A stretch of DNA of 30,665 nt from a virus, in the IMG/VR virus record IMGVR_UViG_3300025646_000211, positions 1 through 30,665 of that record. One strand, 5' to 3'. Positions 13,564-21,763 of the stretch are shown here, piece after piece (position 1 is the stretch's first letter; the number at the start of each line of letters is the position of its first letter). Made by a program: the position numbers and the translations under genes. The notes beneath the pieces were generated by a model. The model made no database searches. It was not told where the DNA came from and saw only the letters and a list, made by a program, of their open reading frames with translations.

Positions 13564-15234
13564 ATGCCTAAAAAGAGTGGAAGTTCTTTTGGTTCTTTTG
13601 ACTCTTTTTCAAAAGCCGAAAAATTTAAACCACAAGAATTGAATGCTATAACGACTGAGTTTTCCAGGGGCTCAGTTCCAAACTCTATTGCAACAACAAA
13701 TAGAGAATCTGCCTGGGCGCGTTGGCGTAGAGGTTATGAAATTGCAACAGCAGAAGTTTATAATTACGATATTACATATCCTTTTAGATATCAAATTCCT
13801 GATCCTTTAGCGCCTATACCAGTTAGTGGTATTTTTATGGCGCTTGAAAATAATAATGACGTTTTATTGTATGAAGATTTAGAATTCTTTGCTTTAGAAG
13901 ATTCAGTAGGCCCTGGTACAGTAACAAATCCTGTTCCAATTATTTCAGGAGCTTTTGTTGGATTTCCAACAAAAAATAAAGAATTTGGAATACATTGGGC
14001 ATTATGGCGTTATGCAGGATCTATTAGATGTGATCAATTTACAGATCCAAATACAGGAAAAAATTTATACGTTGAAAGTGTAACTGAAGATCAAAAATAT
14101 TGGTATGTAAAATTAGCTGGCAATTGGGGACCAGATAATAAACTTCCAGCACCTTTCTTTATTGAAGTTGAAGGTCAACCTTCAGGTACTAAACCTGCAA
14201 ATACTGAAATTTTTGAAGATCGGATTGTAGAAAAAAATGGAAAAATTATTGATAAAAATACCATTAATCCAGCAAATCAAAAAAGGTATGGTTATGTTCA
14301 AGCTATTGTTATTGACATAGCAGAAGAAACAGGCATTTTAACTTTTAAAAAAGCAGGCTCAATATATGTAACTCCTGATGCTGTTTTTGTAACACCTTCT
14401 CCTGTGCCATTTGAAACAGGTAGATTTTTAATAACAGGACCTAGATATAGTTGTACTTGTCAAGACTTTACTAGAAGAGATTATGCATTTTTAGAAACAA
14501 CTGTTAGACAGAGTAATAAAAAATTATTTCCTAGAAATAAAATAGCAAGCGTTAAACCTGGCCGTGTTGATGTTGTTCAAAACAATGGCAATACAGATAA
14601 CAGAGCAATGACAAAAGCAGATGTTAATAGAGGTTTAAAAATTACATATCCAGGAGGATTTAGTATTGATTATGAAGTTACAAACTTAACTCAAGAAAAT
14701 AGATTAACACCTAGAGATAATCCCGGTGTATATGTAGACTTTGGTGCTACTTATCTGCGAAGTACAACAGACATATCAATTGCTGGTTCAAGGCCAGAAG
14801 GTTATCCAAAATTTGAAGATTATAAAACATCAGTAACAAAAACTGATTCCAGTGTTGTACGTCAAGATGAACTTATAGAATTAACTGATGTTTGGACACC
14901 GTTACTAGATGAAATGCGTTATTGCAAACATATTTATGCATTAAAATTTAAAGACTCTTTGTTCCCACCAGAGCCTTCTGATTTTCCAGTAGGTGTAATG
15001 AGTATGGTTGAATGGGAACAAAATTTAGTTTTAAAAACTGAAAAAGATGAAATGTCAGCATATAACATGTTGTTAAATCGAAGAGGTTTATCAAAAATGG
15101 ATGTACCTCCATATAATTGTCAGTCTCCTATGCTATTTCCGATGATGCAAAAAATATTTAATATCGCTACAAATGATATTAAAATTGAAAATTTTACAAT
15201 GTTTGATAAGAATAACCAAGAATATAGCCCTTAA
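13564..15234 (+). CDS. Virion protein with split SWIM-like C-x-C ... C-x-H set
   Basis: This 556-residue protein has ATG two bases after the upstream stop. The N-terminal 60 residues are Ser/Phe/Lys rich, with an ESAWARWRRGYEIA segment. The body is beta-rich. Residues 295-304 read YSCTCQDFTR (Cys297, Cys299) and residues 452-460 read RYCKHIYAL (Cys454, His456). This is the C-x-C-x(n)-C-x-H signature of SWIM zinc fingers, but with about 154 residues between the halves instead of the usual short loop. A zinc-stapled structural fold is likely; SWIM domains usually bind nucleic acid or protein. Position suggests a tail or baseplate protein. I recall similar cyanophage virion proteins but cannot prove the link here. 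Confidence 0.75.
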   Translation: MPKKSGSSFGSFDSFSKAEKFKPQELNAITTEFSRGSVPNSIATTNRESAWARWRRGYEIATAEVYNYDITYPFRYQIPDPLAPIPVSGIFMALENNNDVLLYEDLEFFALEDSVGPGTVTNPVPIISGAFVGFPTKNKEFGIHWALWRYAGSIRCDQFTDPNTGKNLYVESVTEDQKYWYVKLAGNWGPDNKLPAPFFIEVEGQPSGTKPANTEIFEDRIVEKNGKIIDKNTINPANQKRYGYVQAIVIDIAEETGILTFKKAGSIYVTPDAVFVTPSPVPFETGRFLITGPRYSCTCQDFTRRDYAFLETTVRQSNKKLFPRNKIASVKPGRVDVVQNNGNTDNRAMTKADVNRGLKITYPGGFSIDYEVTNLTQENRLTPRDNPGVYVDFGATYLRSTTDISIAGSRPEGYPKFEDYKTSVTKTDSSVVRQDELIELTDVWTPLLDEMRYCKHIYALKFKDSLFPPEPSDFPVGVMSMVEWEQNLVLKTEKDEMSAYNMLLNRRGLSKMDVPPYNCQSPMLFPMMQKIFNIATNDIKIENFTMFDKNNQEYSP

Positions 15235-15257
15235 CACATAGTATATACTTATAAGTG

Positions 15258-15288
15258 AACGCATGACTGTGCTACTGGTGTCTGCGTT
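15258..15288. repeat. Inverted repeat in the 92-nt gap before the integrase-like gene
   Basis: AACGCA (15258-15263) and TGCGTT (15283-15288) are a perfect 6-nt inverted repeat with a 19-nt loop, followed by GTTGC/GCAAC around 15286-15304. It could be a terminator for the virion operon, a recombination site or chance. No tRNA fragment is seen in this gap. Confidence 0.25.
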
Positions 15289-15326
15289 GCTAGTCTTTAT
15301 GCAACTGAAGTTCGCTTTATGGTTTT

Positions 15327-15767
15327 ATGACTCATCACGTTTCTCCTCCTGTTGATCAACGTATTGTTGATGATTATTTTAAACTTTGTAAAAGCAAAAA
15401 AAATAATAAATTAGCATGGTTCTACGGCATGTTAGCAACTTTTGGAGTAAAGCCTGATCAATTAAAACAATTCAAATGGAATGAAGACGGAACAATTAAT
15501 ATACCGTCTAGAAAAAAACCTGTTCGTCCTATGCATCCTCAATGGGTTTTCCTGTTTGGTTTAAAAGAAAAACAGCCTTCTAATATAGAAGACTGTTGGA
15601 ATAATGCATGGCTTTTAATTTATCAAGCTATGGCATGCAAAGAAATTGAATGTAATATTATTGAATTATTAATTGCTTACAAAATACGTAAAGCATTTTA
15701 TTCACCTAAGCGGCTGATGGAAAAGAAATTTGTTCGTTCGCCTGAGTTTTCTTCCAGTCATTCTTGA
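15327..15767 (+). CDS. Degenerate tyrosine-recombinase-like protein
   Basis: The protein has 146 residues. Residues 26-80 (KLAWFYGMLATFGVKPDQL, then DGTINIPSRKKPVRPMHPQW and VFLFGL) resemble the front half of the catalytic domain of cyanobacterial phage-type integrases, where the pattern is a helix ending in GLRPHEL, a short beta hairpin and a conserved Lys. In this copy the first catalytic Arg position is Lys (GVKP). The C-terminal H-x-x-R and nucleophilic Tyr boxes cannot be found before the stop, so it is unlikely to be an active recombinase. Its 3' end overlaps the opposite-strand excisionase-like gene by 62 nt. Alternatives are a DNA-binding remnant or a repurposed regulator. Confidence 0.55.
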   Translation: MTHHVSPPVDQRIVDDYFKLCKSKKNNKLAWFYGMLATFGVKPDQLKQFKWNEDGTINIPSRKKPVRPMHPQWVFLFGLKEKQPSNIEDCWNNAWLLIYQAMACKEIECNIIELLIAYKIRKAFYSPKRLMEKKFVRSPEFSSSHS

Positions 15768-15942
15768 CAGCATTTTTATTCCAAAGATAACTATCCCTAG
15801 AAAAAGTAATTTTATCGAAAGCAGCGTAGTGTGAACCAAGATTAAAAGTACCGTTATCTCTTAGTTTAAAAAGTTCTTTCTTGTCAATTTCAAGTTCTTT
15901 TGACATTTGATTGGCAGTGACCCAACCATGTGTTCTTGACAT
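15706..15942 (-). CDS. Excisionase-like winged-helix protein
   Basis: This 78-residue protein is on the minus strand and convergent with the integrase-like gene. Residues 7-45 (WVTANQMSKELEIDKKELF, then KLRDNGTFNLGSHYAAFD) have the form of an excisionase/MerR-type winged helix: a helix-turn-helix followed by a wing with the conserved 'G-x-HY' seen in cyanobacterial Xis-like proteins. It then shows RDSYLWNKNAVKND, which resembles the last helix of that group. Excisionases bend att DNA and often repress promoters. Divergent from the HNH gene, with a 116-nt intergenic region holding inverted repeats, so control of that region is plausible. No strong ribosome site is seen. Confidence 0.6.
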   Translation of the reverse strand: MSRTHGWVTANQMSKELEIDKKELFKLRDNGTFNLGSHYAAFDKITFSRDSYLWNKNAVKNDWKKTQANEQISFPSAA

Positions 15943-15951
15943 TGGAAAAAC

Positions 15952-16030
15952 TTAGCGCATATATAAACTAAACGTATCAAAATAAAAGTCAACAGTACGT
16001 CTAGTTTCTTTTGTTAGATTTAGCACATAT
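15952..16030. promoter_or_regulatory. Nested direct and inverted repeats: candidate operator or att site
   Basis: An inverted pair AAACTAAACGT (15965-15975) and ACGTCTAGTTT (15997-16007) matches at 10 of 11 positions. Outside it lie direct repeats TTAGCGCATAT (15952-15962) and TTAGCACATAT (16020-16030), with one mismatch. The region separates the divergent excisionase-like and HNH genes. It is a natural place for protein binding and divergent promoters; the function is not shown. Confidence 0.4.
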
Positions 16031-16058
16031 TAAAATAAGATAATGGCAGTTAAATACT

Positions 16059-16427
16059 ATGTTCGCAACGGAGCATGATCCCCTTGCACTATTAGTTGAG
16101 ATAACTCCAAAACTTGCGAAAAAACGATTCAGAGAAGAAATATACAAGTCCTGGAATCATTGTTGTGGATATTGCGGAGAACCAGCAACGTCATTGGACC
16201 ACATAGTCCCACGTTTTAAATCTGGTTCTAGCAATCGTAACAATTTATTGCCCTCTTGCCAACGCTGTAACTCAAATAAAGGATCTCTTAGCATGATCGA
16301 GTGGTATAGCAAACAAAAATTCTTTAGTCAAGAAAAATTAAATAAAATTCAAGAATGGATAGAAAAAGAAGTAATTGATCTTTTTCAGTATACTAGTAAT
16401 TATATAAATAAAAAAATAGGCGCATAA
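16059..16427 (+). CDS. HNH homing-type endonuclease
   Basis: This 122-residue protein is a small site-specific or nicking DNA endonuclease. Residues 35-75 contain the beta-beta-alpha-metal motif with two zinc knuckles: CGYCG (Cys36, Cys39), SLDHIVPRFKSG with the catalytic Asp47-His48, NRNNLLPSCQRCN with Cys67 and Cys70, then NKG. The family includes stand-alone homing enzymes common in phage virion regions and packaging-associated HNH proteins. The start is ATG 16059; there is no clear ribosome site. It overlaps the 1778-residue gene by one base (TAATG). Its presence beside integrase- and excisionase-like genes suggests this whole interval arrived as mobile DNA. Confidence 0.85.
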   Translation: MFATEHDPLALLVEITPKLAKKRFREEIYKSWNHCCGYCGEPATSLDHIVPRFKSGSSNRNNLLPSCQRCNSNKGSLSMIEWYSKQKFFSQEKLNKIQEWIEKEVIDLFQYTSNYINKKIGA

Positions 16428-19400
16428 TGGCACAAACACCTTCTATACCTTCTATTTATCGTGAAATTTTAAATTGGTTAAGTGATAACAATAAAATGGG
16501 ATTAGTTGATCCCTATATGAGTGTAGGTAGTTTTAAATTATTTAATGAAGGTCCGTATACTCAAGAATGGATTAATCAATTACAAGATTTAGCAGAAGAA
16601 GCATTAGGTAGGCAATTAAATTCTAATGAAACAATTCAAATACAAGATTATTTTAAACAAAAATATGAGCCTTCAAATTGGAATCAATCTGTACCTTCAG
16701 GAGATGAAATAGGTGATGTGTCACCAGAAAATAAAATAGGACAAATTCCAACAGGAGATGAAATAGGTGATGCACCACAAACTGAACCTGGATTTGTGCC
16801 TGAACCCGAGCCTGAAACAGATTTAAATACAGAAGGAGATTTACCCCTGGATGAAACTACAATTGAATCAGATAGTACTACTACATTTAATAACATTCCT
16901 GCTGAGCTTTCTGCTCAAATGGAAAGATTATATGGCACAGATCCAACGGCTACAGTTACAAGTGAAGGAAAATTAGATCGCTGGGGTAACCCAGCAATGA
17001 ATGATACAGAGTTAGAAGCCTGGATACAACAATATGTACCTAATTTTACAATGCCAGAAAATTTAAAAATAAGTTATGCAGGACCGCTTATAGAAAATAT
17101 TAGAAAAAATAAATGGATGATTGACGAAACAAAGTATCCTTATGGAGCAAGTAACGATCTTTATTGGTTAAAAACACACAGAGCAAACGATAAAATTTGG
17201 GAAGAAGCAAATAAAAATCTACCTTCTTGGGGTTCAGAATTACCAGTTGATCAAAGAAATACTACAAATGTATTAGCTCCAGATGGACAAGTTTACCGTG
17301 GAACACAAGATAATAATGATAAATATTTAATATACAAAGATAAAAATGATGAAAAAATTAAAGCAGTAAAGATGTTTACAAAAAGTAATGATAACGGCCA
17401 TTACGATTTAGCACAAGCGATTAAAAATGGCCTTGTAACACCAAGAGAAGATATAGAAAATATATATGAAGGGGATCGTCTTTATAGTGCCAAAGATTTT
17501 CCTAGATTAAATTCTATGGTAAGAACAAATGATAATCCAAATATTTTAAAGTTTGATGAATCTTTTGTTATTGATCCTGAACGTTTAGCAAGATCAATTG
17601 GAAGCAAAGTATCACAAGCTCCAGGATATGAACCTCCAACCGCTATATTAACGCCATATGATATTCAGTTTGCAGAGCATAAGAAAAATATGCAAACTGC
17701 AATTGATAATATGCGCAAAGAACAAGACAAAATATTTGGAACAGGAGGGTCAACATATAAAGAAAATCCAGATCATCCTTATTGGGATTTCATAGAACAG
17801 TTCCCTGGAGGAGAAATACCTGATGAATTTAAACCTGAATCTGATCCAGATGTTGTTGGAATTTTTTATGGTTATGATAAAGATACTAAAGAAGGATATT
17901 TAAAAACTAGAAGTCATAATACTACAACAGTAATTCCTAACACAAGTAGCTTGGCATTCCAGCAAAACGCCGCAATTAAAGAAGTAGAAAGAAGATTATT
18001 AAAATTAAAAGAAAAAGCAAAACAAGGTTACGATGTTCAATGGAAAGATATTGATTTTTGGATTTTTGATTTAGACAATCTTGTTTCATCAGCAGGTAAC
18101 AATTATGTAAATAGTAGTATATTTGACAACTCAGCAAATTATTTTTCAGATCGACAAAAACGAGATATTTTACAAGCAGCACAATTATTTTGGGCTAATG
18201 AAATTATTCAACCTAATCAATGGCGAGATGATTTAGAAATTGATCCAATAAAATTTAAAACAGGAGAAGCAGTCGATACAGAATTTGATCCTGTTTTTTA
18301 TAAAGCTGAATTGGCTTTATATGAACCAGATCAAATTTTTGCTGAATCAGGAAATGATTTATGGGAAGAAGCTTTAGAAACAGGTGATTGGGATACTGTA
18401 TTTAGATTTACTCCATTACCTGCAACTCAAATGATTGCACTAATGGGAAGTGAAAATCCAGAAAGTCAACAATTAGCAGCAGAAATGTTAGCAGAAGGTC
18501 AAACTAATTATTGGAAAGCACATTATAGAAAATATGGATATTTAAATGGCATAAGAGGATATAAAGGCGACACTCCGGCAAATGTAGATAATTACAATCG
18601 AAATATTGCTCCAACAGATTATGAATATCAAATGCTTAGAAATTTATCTTTAGGTGCAGATACTTCAAGTTTATTAGAATCTGACCCTGACTTTGCAAAC
18701 TCAGTAATTTCAGAATCTTTAATTAATAAAATAATAAGTAATCCCGACAGTTTAACCCAAATTTTAGAAGATTTGAATTTACCTCAAATTCCAGAAGATG
18801 AAGAAATTGATTTTGATCAATTAAAAACAATGCTATCTGAAGCTGTTGTTAATTTAGAAGAAAATGAAAAAAATATATATTTACTGGAAGCAGGTGATGA
18901 TTACAGAGAAATAGAAGCATTAAAATATTTATCTCCAAATGAAATAAAAGAAAACAAAAAATTTGATCTTTTATTTAAAGATGCAAGAAATGAAACAATA
19001 AAACAATTAGAAACAATAAGAAGACGAGAACTAGAATTTGACACATTAAAAAATCTTGGCGGATTAAAAGAAGTATTTAATTTAGGTGAGATATTAGCAG
19101 ATAATTTATTGGGAGATGGACTTGGAATGGTCATGGCTTTTGGAGGAGATACAAGTATTAATGATTTAAAAAGTAATTGGGCAGATAAATTTCAAGATTT
19201 ATCGGGTATTTCAAATAATGTTACATACAATTGGCAAAAATGGTTTGATGAAACTTTAACAACTAAATATGCAGAAGTAGAAGCAGATAGATTTATTGAA
19301 TCAATTAGATCTCAAGCTTTTGCAAATACACTACAAGAAGAACAAGAGTTAGCAAAGCAACGCTTACAAGGTTCGACTTTTATTAATGAATACACAGGAA

Positions 19401-21763
19401 ACATATCAGACGAAATGTTAAACAAAGTAAATGAAAAAATATTAGAAACTATTGAAACAATAGAACAAGAAAGAGGTGACAGGGAAGGTTTATTGGATGA
19501 AGAAGATGATGTTTTATTTTCTCAAGAATTTATTGATCGTTTAAAAGAAAATGCAATTTTAAATACTGAAGAAAATTTATCTACTTATTTTAGTTCAACA
19601 GAAGGAAGTGTAATTAAAGATTATATAGATAAACAAAAAACACCATTTCAATCAGTTAATATTGAAATTTTAAGTAAACTTAAAAACATAGGAAATTCAT
19701 TGATTGATTACAATAAAGAATATCCTTATTACACTTATGGAACAACAAAAAGGTACTGGAAAGAACCAAATGCTATATGGCGTTATAACCAAGATGGTGT
19801 AACAAAACGACCACATCAAGCAATAGTTGATGTTAGTGGATTTGAAAGTGCAAATGAACTTATTAATTTTTTACAACAAATTATTGATCAACCATACGAA
19901 ATAAAATTAAACACTAGAAAAGATATTTTAGGTATCGATAGTAAAGATGATTGGGCAAAACATTTATACAAAAGAAATTATCGTAACTTAACCAGTGATC
20001 AAAAAAAAGAAGTAGATAAAAGTTGGAATAGTGAACTACAAATTTCAAATACAGATGAAACATTACAACAAACAGCACAAACTTTATTAGATGTCATAAC
20101 AGGAGAAAAAACATTGCCGTCTAATGTGCAAGACTTTGACAGTATGTTTGGTAGTTTAAAATTAAATAAAATTAATAGTGCTAATACCGCATTAATAGAT
20201 TATAGAAATAATCCATCACTAAGAACAGAAGAAGATTTAAATAATTCAAATTTATTACCATTAAATTTTTATAAAAATATTAATCAAGAAATAGAAGACG
20301 AAGAAGGAAATACTTATGTTTTAAATAAATCAGGATATACAGATGAAGAAGAACAAGAATTATTTGATATTAAATCAACATTTGATGGTTTATACAATAC
20401 TTTGTACTCACAAGCAAAAAAAGGATTAAAGCTTAAAGACAGTGAAGGAGAAGAAATAAAAATAGAATATGATTTTGCAAATGAATTTATTAATACATAT
20501 TTAAAACCCAGATTTGATTATTCAAAATCAATGGAAGAGTTTGTTAGTTATATGGACGTTGAAGAAGGAGAAGAAAATATATTTCAAACGATTAACCGTT
20601 TAGAAGAAGTTAAAATTGCTGCTTTTGAGTCGGCAAAAGAACAATTTCAAAATATAATAGAAGGTAAATATGATAAAGATTTTAATTCAAATTATTATTT
20701 GAATCCATATGATCATTTATACGCGCCTGTAAATTTAAATACTGAAGAAGAAATAAAAGCATGGCAAGAAAACAGACAAATAGAAAATATAAATCAAAAG
20801 AATTTAATTCAAGAAGATTTAGAACGAGCAATTAATGATCCAACTGGTTTAGTTGATCCTGATAACCCTTCTTTGGGAACATGGGTAGAAAATCTTTATT
20901 ATTATGGTTATATTAATAAACTAGATGATACGACAATTGAAAATGCTATTAACGATTTAGATACTTTTGCAAGATTGCATTATCAATTAATTGGATCAAA
21001 AGGAATTAATGTAACTGACGAAGATGGTAACACAAGATTAGTAATGCTTTCAGCTTCTGAAAATCCACAAAACATATCAGCTACAATTTTACGAAACACT
21101 ATTGCAGATAAAGCAGCATCAATTCCAACTGTTTTTAGTGAGTTTGTTTCACCTGATGATGCAATTAAATACTTATTAGGAGGAGTAAATCCAGAAGATA
21201 ATCCTGAAGTTTGGAAAGATTTATTACAAAGTTTTGGTCTAGGAAATGATACAACTTTTGAAGAATTATCAGACTATGCAGCAGAAGTATTGAGAACAGC
21301 AGAAGCTGCTGAAATTAGAGAAACGATTGAATTATTAAATAAAAAAGAATTAAAACCAACGCAAGCTCGCCTTGGTGCTACTTATATTGAAAGAGATGAA
21401 GATAACACAGTTAACGAAGAAGACTTTACTGCAATTTATAAACTATTCCAAGACACAGGCTACCAGGGGACACAAAAAGAATTTTTTGATACTTTCTTAG
21501 AAGGTGAAAGTTTGGAAGACATGCAAGTTTTAGATAAAATTATTCAAGGAAAAATACCTGAATTTGAAATTGATTTGTCTGATCCATTTACATCATTGAC
21601 ATCTTTAGAAAATATATTTGATGATCCAATCGAAGAACAAGAAGATATCACAACAGACGAAGATAATTTGTTCGATTTTAAACTTGACGAAGACGAAGAA
21701 GACCAAGAAAACGATATCGAAAGTACTTTAGGAAACCTAGGGAACTTGTTTACCTGGAAATAG
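16427..21763 (+). CDS. Giant acidic protein (1778 aa), unknown, probably virion
   Basis: This is the largest complete gene in the window. It is strongly acidic, with Glu/Asp/Asn/Lys dominating, long helical stretches and few hydrophobic segments. It begins with an ordered part (residues 1-85), then an acidic Pro-rich linker (90-155) holding an 18-residue tandem repeat with GDEIGD twice. Helical blocks follow, including EEQELAKQRLQ near residue 980 and several Trp/Tyr-rich WDFIEQFP-like patches, and it ends in an extremely acidic tail (about 1725-1770) before NLFTWK. No polymerase, protease, lysozyme or tape-measure hydrophobic pattern is found. The DNA is very AT-rich (13 of 60 G+C in 20161-20220). 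An ejected inner-virion protein is the best guess. Confidence 0.85.
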   Translation: MAQTPSIPSIYREILNWLSDNNKMGLVDPYMSVGSFKLFNEGPYTQEWINQLQDLAEEALGRQLNSNETIQIQDYFKQKYEPSNWNQSVPSGDEIGDVSPENKIGQIPTGDEIGDAPQTEPGFVPEPEPETDLNTEGDLPLDETTIESDSTTTFNNIPAELSAQMERLYGTDPTATVTSEGKLDRWGNPAMNDTELEAWIQQYVPNFTMPENLKISYAGPLIENIRKNKWMIDETKYPYGASNDLYWLKTHRANDKIWEEANKNLPSWGSELPVDQRNTTNVLAPDGQVYRGTQDNNDKYLIYKDKNDEKIKAVKMFTKSNDNGHYDLAQAIKNGLVTPREDIENIYEGDRLYSAKDFPRLNSMVRTNDNPNILKFDESFVIDPERLARSIGSKVSQAPGYEPPTAILTPYDIQFAEHKKNMQTAIDNMRKEQDKIFGTGGSTYKENPDHPYWDFIEQFPGGEIPDEFKPESDPDVVGIFYGYDKDTKEGYLKTRSHNTTTVIPNTSSLAFQQNAAIKEVERRLLKLKEKAKQGYDVQWKDIDFWIFDLDNLVSSAGNNYVNSSIFDNSANYFSDRQKRDILQAAQLFWANEIIQPNQWRDDLEIDPIKFKTGEAVDTEFDPVFYKAELALYEPDQIFAESGNDLWEEALETGDWDTVFRFTPLPATQMIALMGSENPESQQLAAEMLAEGQTNYWKAHYRKYGYLNGIRGYKGDTPANVDNYNRNIAPTDYEYQMLRNLSLGADTSSLLESDPDFANSVISESLINKIISNPDSLTQILEDLNLPQIPEDEEIDFDQLKTMLSEAVVNLEENEKNIYLLEAGDDYREIEALKYLSPNEIKENKKFDLLFKDARNETIKQLETIRRRELEFDTLKNLGGLKEVFNLGEILADNLLGDGLGMVMAFGGDTSINDLKSNWADKFQDLSGISNNVTYNWQKWFDETLTTKYAEVEADRFIESIRSQAFANTLQEEQELAKQRLQGSTFINEYTGNISDEMLNKVNEKILETIETIEQERGDREGLLDEEDDVLFSQEFIDRLKENAILNTEENLSTYFSSTEGSVIKDYIDKQKTPFQSVNIEILSKLKNIGNSLIDYNKEYPYYTYGTTKRYWKEPNAIWRYNQDGVTKRPHQAIVDVSGFESANELINFLQQIIDQPYEIKLNTRKDILGIDSKDDWAKHLYKRNYRNLTSDQKKEVDKSWNSELQISNTDETLQQTAQTLLDVITGEKTLPSNVQDFDSMFGSLKLNKINSANTALIDYRNNPSLRTEEDLNNSNLLPLNFYKNINQEIEDEEGNTYVLNKSGYTDEEEQELFDIKSTFDGLYNTLYSQAKKGLKLKDSEGEEIKIEYDFANEFINTYLKPRFDYSKSMEEFVSYMDVEEGEENIFQTINRLEEVKIAAFESAKEQFQNIIEGKYDKDFNSNYYLNPYDHLYAPVNLNTEEEIKAWQENRQIENINQKNLIQEDLERAINDPTGLVDPDNPSLGTWVENLYYYGYINKLDDTTIENAINDLDTFARLHYQLIGSKGINVTDEDGNTRLVMLSASENPQNISATILRNTIADKAASIPTVFSEFVSPDDAIKYLLGGVNPEDNPEVWKDLLQSFGLGNDTTFEELSDYAAEVLRTAEAAEIRETIELLNKKELKPTQARLGATYIERDEDNTVNEEDFTAIYKLFQDTGYQGTQKEFFDTFLEGESLEDMQVLDKIIQGKIPEFEIDLSDPFTSLTSLENIFDDPIEEQEDITTDEDNLFDFKLDEDEEDQENDIESTLGNLGNLFTWK
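16698..16772 (+). repeat. 21-bp direct repeat in the giant gene (18-residue unit)
   Basis: A 21-nt sequence starting CAGGAGATGAAATAGG occurs at 16698-16718 and again, identical, at 16752-16772, offset 54 nt. It encodes GDEIGD twice and marks an 18-residue tandem repeat in the acidic linker. Confidence 0.8.

Follow-up and report, generated by a model that had tools for sequence, protein, structure and literature searches.

Layout and conservation of the locus

The window, by which we mean the whole stretch of viral DNA that was analysed (30,665 nt), comes from a phage of the S-EIV1 lineage, the nearest named phage being Synechococcus phage S-EIV1 with a portal-like protein that is 72% identical, and this agrees with the cyanophage origin proposed in the initial annotation. 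The three open reading frames described there were found between two plus-strand genes, namely the 556-aa gene p556 (13564-15234), a conserved anchor of the lineage with a relative in 206 viral loci, and a giant gene of 1778 aa (16427-21763). The integrase-like gene (int; 15327-15767, plus strand) encodes 146 aa and its 3' end overlaps the 3' end of the Xis-like winged-HTH gene (xis; 15706-15942, minus strand, 78 aa). The HNH endonuclease gene (16059-16427, plus strand, 122 aa) follows on the other side of xis and ends in a stop codon that overlaps the giant gene's start (TAATG).

As single sequences of the Xis-like and integrase-like proteins gave no convincing database match, relatives of both were collected; the int profile matched 211 loci and the xis profile 481, of which the best 80 each were used, and 80 of the 206 loci found with p556 were kept. 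The divergent arrangement of xis and HNH was observed in each of the 78 Xis loci whose flanks were long enough, eighteen of them lacking int, and in the int-centred set (best 80 of 211) a convergent xis lies beside all 80 int genes. The coding hits of xis and HNH are 117-141 nt apart in practically all contigs that are long enough, including S-EIV1. The xis/HNH pair is the core of the lineage, whereas int is optional and is the only variable member. None of the relatives examined has the giant gene directly after p556, an arrangement that the initial annotation had proposed to look for, and in one clade a homologue of the giant gene was not detected by tblastn. Identity to distant relatives is mostly 55-67% for HNH and ~47-56% for p556, HNH thus being no less conserved than this virion-region gene, with the giant gene being far less conserved, and the median dN/dS is 0.033 for p556, 0.045 for xis, 0.09 for HNH and 0.16 for int. 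In five loci (L048, L049, L051, L052 and L055), the int/xis/HNH block is separated from p556 by ~5.4-5.7 kb and its genes remain together despite this separation.

The int leader (15244-15326, plus strand) consists of a TATACTTAT box at 15244-15252 and a further ~75 nt. In the relatives, the leader is ~100 nt long with the conserved TATACTTAT box followed by a covarying 7-bp hairpin; of these the window has the box, while no such hairpin could be recognised in it (z of the leader fold -1.3, not significant). A consensus RNA fold of the whole leader was rejected as RNAalifold returned zero pairs, the first hairpin alone being supported, in relatives. Neither a tRNA nor an Rfam element was found within the leader.

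The alignment of 52 distinct xis-HNH intergenic regions contains two conserved elements. On the xis strand, TTGAC is conserved in at least 90% of the regions and is followed after ~16 nt by TA...T; the predicted Xis-like promoter of the window (15965-15992, minus strand) accordingly reads TTGACT (15992-15987), 16 nt and TAGTTT (15970-15965), of which the -10 part is weak. The other is the 19-nt element TTARAATAARDTAAYGGCA (16030-16048, plus strand) directly 5' of HNH, a predicted promoter or operator of the HNH operon. It matches once in the window, once in every scanned stretch of a relative, there at HNH, and nowhere in the other 50 kb of S-EIV1; confined to HNH in this way, it is not a general late promoter. 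A promoter scan of the region scored not far above shuffled sequences, with weak -10 hexamers. The inverted and direct repeats mentioned in the initial annotation do exist as short imperfect ones, but none is att-like; for the one close direct repeat (TTAGCRCATAT, 15952 and 16020), a scan with up to two mismatches showed no enrichment of the pattern within the window.

The three proteins and their relatives

No convincing Pfam or PHROG match was found for the integrase-like protein. Its structure as predicted by AlphaFold2 (pLDDT 80, pTM 0.74), a step which the initial annotation had suggested, has a recombinase fold: in a VIA-align search, with alignments over residues 9-129, the first 44 rows were all tyrosine recombinases, protelomerases or topoisomerase IB (Z 8.7-5.6) and the first unrelated row appeared at Z 3.6. 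Foldseek returned only weak recombinase matches for the model (best E 0.3); the identity was decided by VIA-align and by profile comparison. A tblastn search against plasmids gave one weak match, a Microcystis tyrosine recombinase, and hhalign of the integrase-like profile with this recombinase and two cyanobacterial homologues gave an E-value of 5e-7 and a score of 50.8, whereas none of the 60 controls with shuffled columns scored higher than 20.2. Tyrosine recombinases of cyanobacterial plasmids (Microcystis WP_103113473 and Picosynechococcus WP_065717415) are the closest detectable sequence relatives, with which the motifs W.YG..A.YG[LV] and P.W are shared. By hhalign against single sequences, no kinship to the P-SSP7-type cyanopodovirus integrase or to the integrase of the relative G002 was found.

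The plasmid recombinases have ~365 residues with the first catalytic arginine (Arg-I), an LRHxxA box and a C-terminal Tyr, whereas in the phage family the N-terminal domain, Arg-I and the Tyr region are all missing. Their Arg-I ('YGLRxHE') aligns with Lys43 in 'FGVKPDQ' of the integrase-like protein, which bears out the Arg to Lys change reported in the initial annotation; among 89 readable distinct members this position holds K in 64, H in 13, T in five, N in three, Q, E and S in one each, and R in one. The Arg of an HxxR-like box (R121) does not vary, and the His preceding it is either H or Y. All aligned members end ~15-25 residues past this box, and the C-terminal nucleophile Tyr with the second His/Trp box is absent. 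The N-terminal core-binding domain is absent as well, as the 146 aa run from the catalytic domain onward compared to 365 aa in the closest relatives. On these three features (Arg-I, Tyr region and core-binding domain) the protein falls outside the functional integrases. Its length is 137-146 aa in nearly all members, and this uniformity, together with the dN/dS of ~0.16, argues for a functional non-recombinase protein and not a pseudogene. To all appearances the integrase-like protein is a domesticated, catalytically dead piece of a cyanobacterial-type tyrosine recombinase that is not decaying.

Beyond the phage lineage, phage records gave no convincing match to this family, and genome contigs gave only two MAG contigs. 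These two integrase-like genes (L089 and L090) lie on contigs binned as 'bacterium' and 'Euryarchaeota archaeon', which are probably mis-binned phage contigs.

The Xis-like protein gave no convincing domain match as a single sequence; among its relatives, HTH_17 was found in 27 of 32 (best 7e-5) and PHROG 66, 'excisionase and transcriptional regulator', in 29 of 32 (best 3e-5), consistent with the convergent Xis-like gene of the initial annotation. The predicted model has moderate confidence (pLDDT 71), and in the fold search the putative excisionase 2kvv (Z 7.5) was tied with MerR regulators and with viral DNA-packaging winged-HTH domains (7lxs, 7lw0, 6hn7 and 1j9i). Both fold and profiles therefore match the excisionase/MerR-type winged-HTH proteins. 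Unlike known excisionases, the Xis-like protein is kept in phages with no detectable tyrosine integrase and is always divergent from HNH. The integrase domain PF00589 was absent from 11 of 12 relatives' records, the complete S-EIV1 included, and was detected in all 14 control genomes, in a scan that covered tyrosine integrases and in which most of the 12 records are not known to be complete. As only one record in twelve has the domain, the Xis-like protein is unlikely to be the partner of an integrase, and a role as directionality factor without an integrase seems unlikely too. We read it as a putative local regulator of the HNH/giant-gene operon, which is the simplest reading.

A normal tyrosine integrase of ~284 aa was observed among the relatives (L091 9153-10071, minus strand; G002 contig at ~61.2-62.1 kb, the IMG/VR contig of L016). 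The G002 integrase has Arg-I, a CRHTA box and the C-terminal Tyr, and sits between tail-fibre-like and lysin-like genes.

The HNH gene, also named as such in the initial annotation, matches PF01844 (7e-10, above the cut-off) and PHROG 2214 (2e-25). It carries the HNH motif with zinc Cys pairs and Asp-His, and the residues C36, C39, D47, H48, N62, C67, C70 and N71 are invariant in 23 relatives; its identity is certain. The HNH profile also matched toxin B chains in the PDB, and these hits were set aside as spurious.

A predicted antisense terminator within the integrase-like gene

An intrinsic terminator-like hairpin with a T-run occupies positions 15563-15597 on the minus strand, antisense to int codons ~82-91. 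It consists of a 12-bp hairpin (15597-15571) followed by TTTCTTTT, with a z of -5.3, and an antisense terminator was found at codons ~80-91 in all 36 distinct integrase-like ORFs scanned. Across 64 distinct sequences, 98.2% of the cells in the stem are paired and eight of the eleven pairs show changes on both sides. Cells with such both-side changes number 112 compared to 26 in shuffles, and none of 500 shuffles reached the covariation score; related sequences inflate these counts, and controls with a slid register were far lower. The stem also has more pairs than codon choice would give, with 10.8 observed against 8.6 under synonymous-codon randomisation (largest mean 9.0 in 500). A GC-rich hairpin with a T-run that is conserved by covariation, as is expected of an intrinsic terminator, is therefore present.

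A terminator lies downstream of xis in 113 of 114 distinct loci, compared to one of 80 shuffled regions. The distance from the xis stop codon to its start is 107-117 nt in loci with a recognised int and 8-33 nt in loci that truly have no int, while loci with a distance of 58-85 nt carry an int gene with a drifted DQRIV motif. Since it is present with or without int, the terminator belongs to xis, and the hairpin at 15563-15597 is positioned to end the xis transcript as its predicted intrinsic terminator.

The hairpin leaves a trace in the protein. In 76 distinct sequences, residues 82 and 90 are Gln/Cys in 59 and Arg/Arg in seventeen with no mixed combination, and they covary because the hairpin is antisense to their codons. 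We consider it probable that the same DNA is selected both as recombinase-derived coding sequence and as an opposite-strand xis terminator, such that RNA pairing would dictate Gln82-Cys90 versus Arg82-Arg90, and the integrase-like mRNA would face a built-in antisense RNA in the form of the xis 3' UTR. The abstracts found by a search of an open-access library for intrinsic terminators, convergent genes and antisense contained no report of protein covariation imposed by an antisense terminator. Amino-acid covariation, which is usually taken as a sign of protein contact, can stem from a hairpin in RNA that is read off the other strand, and this calls for caution in covariation-based prediction of structure and function in compact genomes.

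Proposed regulatory role and history of the locus

Starting from the gene identities, their conservation and layout, the conservation of the promoter elements, the covariation of the terminator and the purifying selection, we propose that the locus is a fixed regulatory island among the virion genes of S-EIV1-like cyanophages. In this model, xis would be transcribed from a sigma-70-like promoter of its own, located on the opposite strand, and encode a winged-HTH transcription regulator, which may bind the divergent intergenic region and set the expression of its own gene and of the HNH/giant-gene operon. The xis transcript would end at the terminator 8-33 nt past xis or, where int is present, inside the int coding sequence. 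The integrase-like protein would be made from its own promoter and leader and probably modulates the locus in an accessory role, by binding DNA or protein, while HNH would be an intact nuclease of the phage core program. The DNA that each protein binds, the direction and timing of the regulation, the target of HNH and the roles given to HNH and to the integrase-like protein are what we infer, and regulation by the last of these is suggested by analogy alone. Taken as a whole, we give the model an even chance of being correct.

The nearest precedent for a recombinase fold that acts as a phage regulator appears to be MrpR of SPbeta. MrpR (YopR) is the master repressor of this Bacillus prophage, has a tyrosine-recombinase fold that has lost Arg-I, and with its 320 residues retains the core-binding domain and binds repeated SPBRE sites (PMC10516654). 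Both proteins are phage-encoded tyrosine-recombinase folds with Arg-I lost and no recombination function to be expected. In contrast to MrpR, the integrase-like protein is a catalytic-domain fragment of ~140 residues, is optional and a candidate regulator, and occurs in a lineage without evidence of lysogeny. With MrpR as the first, it may be a second kind of regulator derived from a recombinase, of much smaller size, and it occurs in a cyanophage lineage that is widespread and whose regulation is little known.

A point against the proposed regulator is that small subunits of terminases use this winged-HTH fold as well. One rival reading is a packaging module, in which the Xis-like protein would be a small-terminase-type DNA-recognition protein (a winged HTH as in lambda gpNu1) that acts together with HNH on a packaging site located within the intergenic region or close to it. 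The tie of packaging domains with excisionases in the fold search would suit it, as would the universal xis/HNH pair, and HNH genes accompany packaging genes in other phages. The large-terminase gene, however, lies ~13 kb upstream of the locus, and xis, for which a promoter and a terminator of its own are predicted, is read in the direction opposite to the virion genes; we consider this module unlikely. Small HNH proteins are often homing enzymes, and a free-standing homing endonuclease driving the spread of the region might also account for the recombination breakpoint at the boundary of p556 and the leader in two loci (L012 and L036). Homing genes are sporadic, whereas HNH with its upstream element is present in all relatives checked, among which no HNH-less site was found, and this makes the homing reading quite improbable.

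The initial annotation also saw the locus as a trapped mobile or formerly lysogenic module. A related reading takes it as the remnant of temperate or mobile integration genes (int, xis and HNH) that decay in a lytic phage. Recombinase and excisionase ancestry, the normal integrase elsewhere in G002 and the presence or absence of int among relatives, with at least seven changes on the p556 tree, are all compatible with such a remnant. The xis/HNH pair is nevertheless found in all 78 testable loci and in S-EIV1 under strong purifying selection, the integrase-like protein is of uniform length with a dN/dS of 0.16, att-like repeats are lacking and only the int unit comes and goes, which renders such a remnant highly improbable and leaves the mobile module unsupported. 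Presence of all three genes in every relative, raised in the initial annotation as an argument against a mobile module, was thus seen for xis and HNH and not for int. The regulatory unit, its other suggestion, appears to be the best-supported reading of the locus.

Between pairs of loci, the identities of the four genes int, xis, HNH and p556 rise and fall together (r 0.69-0.79), which points to mostly vertical inheritance with losses and, now and then, recombination. An example of the latter is the breakpoint at the p556/int-leader boundary, where DNA identity between L012 (from 6028) and L036 rises from ~80% to ~100% at the p556 stop codon. Loci with no int were not accepted as ancestral empty sites, as three of them (L011, L013 and L030) retain a hairpin resembling the int-internal one; this fits a deletion of int, although the direction is not formally polarised.

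S-EIV1 (KJ410740) has the same order of divergent Xis-like (AHV82239) and HNH (AHV82240) genes and large gene as the source phage, but the integrase-like gene is absent with a 74-aa ORF in its place. An ORF of 73-77 aa (FGDVV...) often follows p556, as in S-EIV1 (AHV82238), L057, L059-L064 and L069-L080. In L062 (4853-5806), the FGDVV N-terminus heads an ORF of 317 aa, which suggests that the short ORF may be a truncated version of a longer protein.
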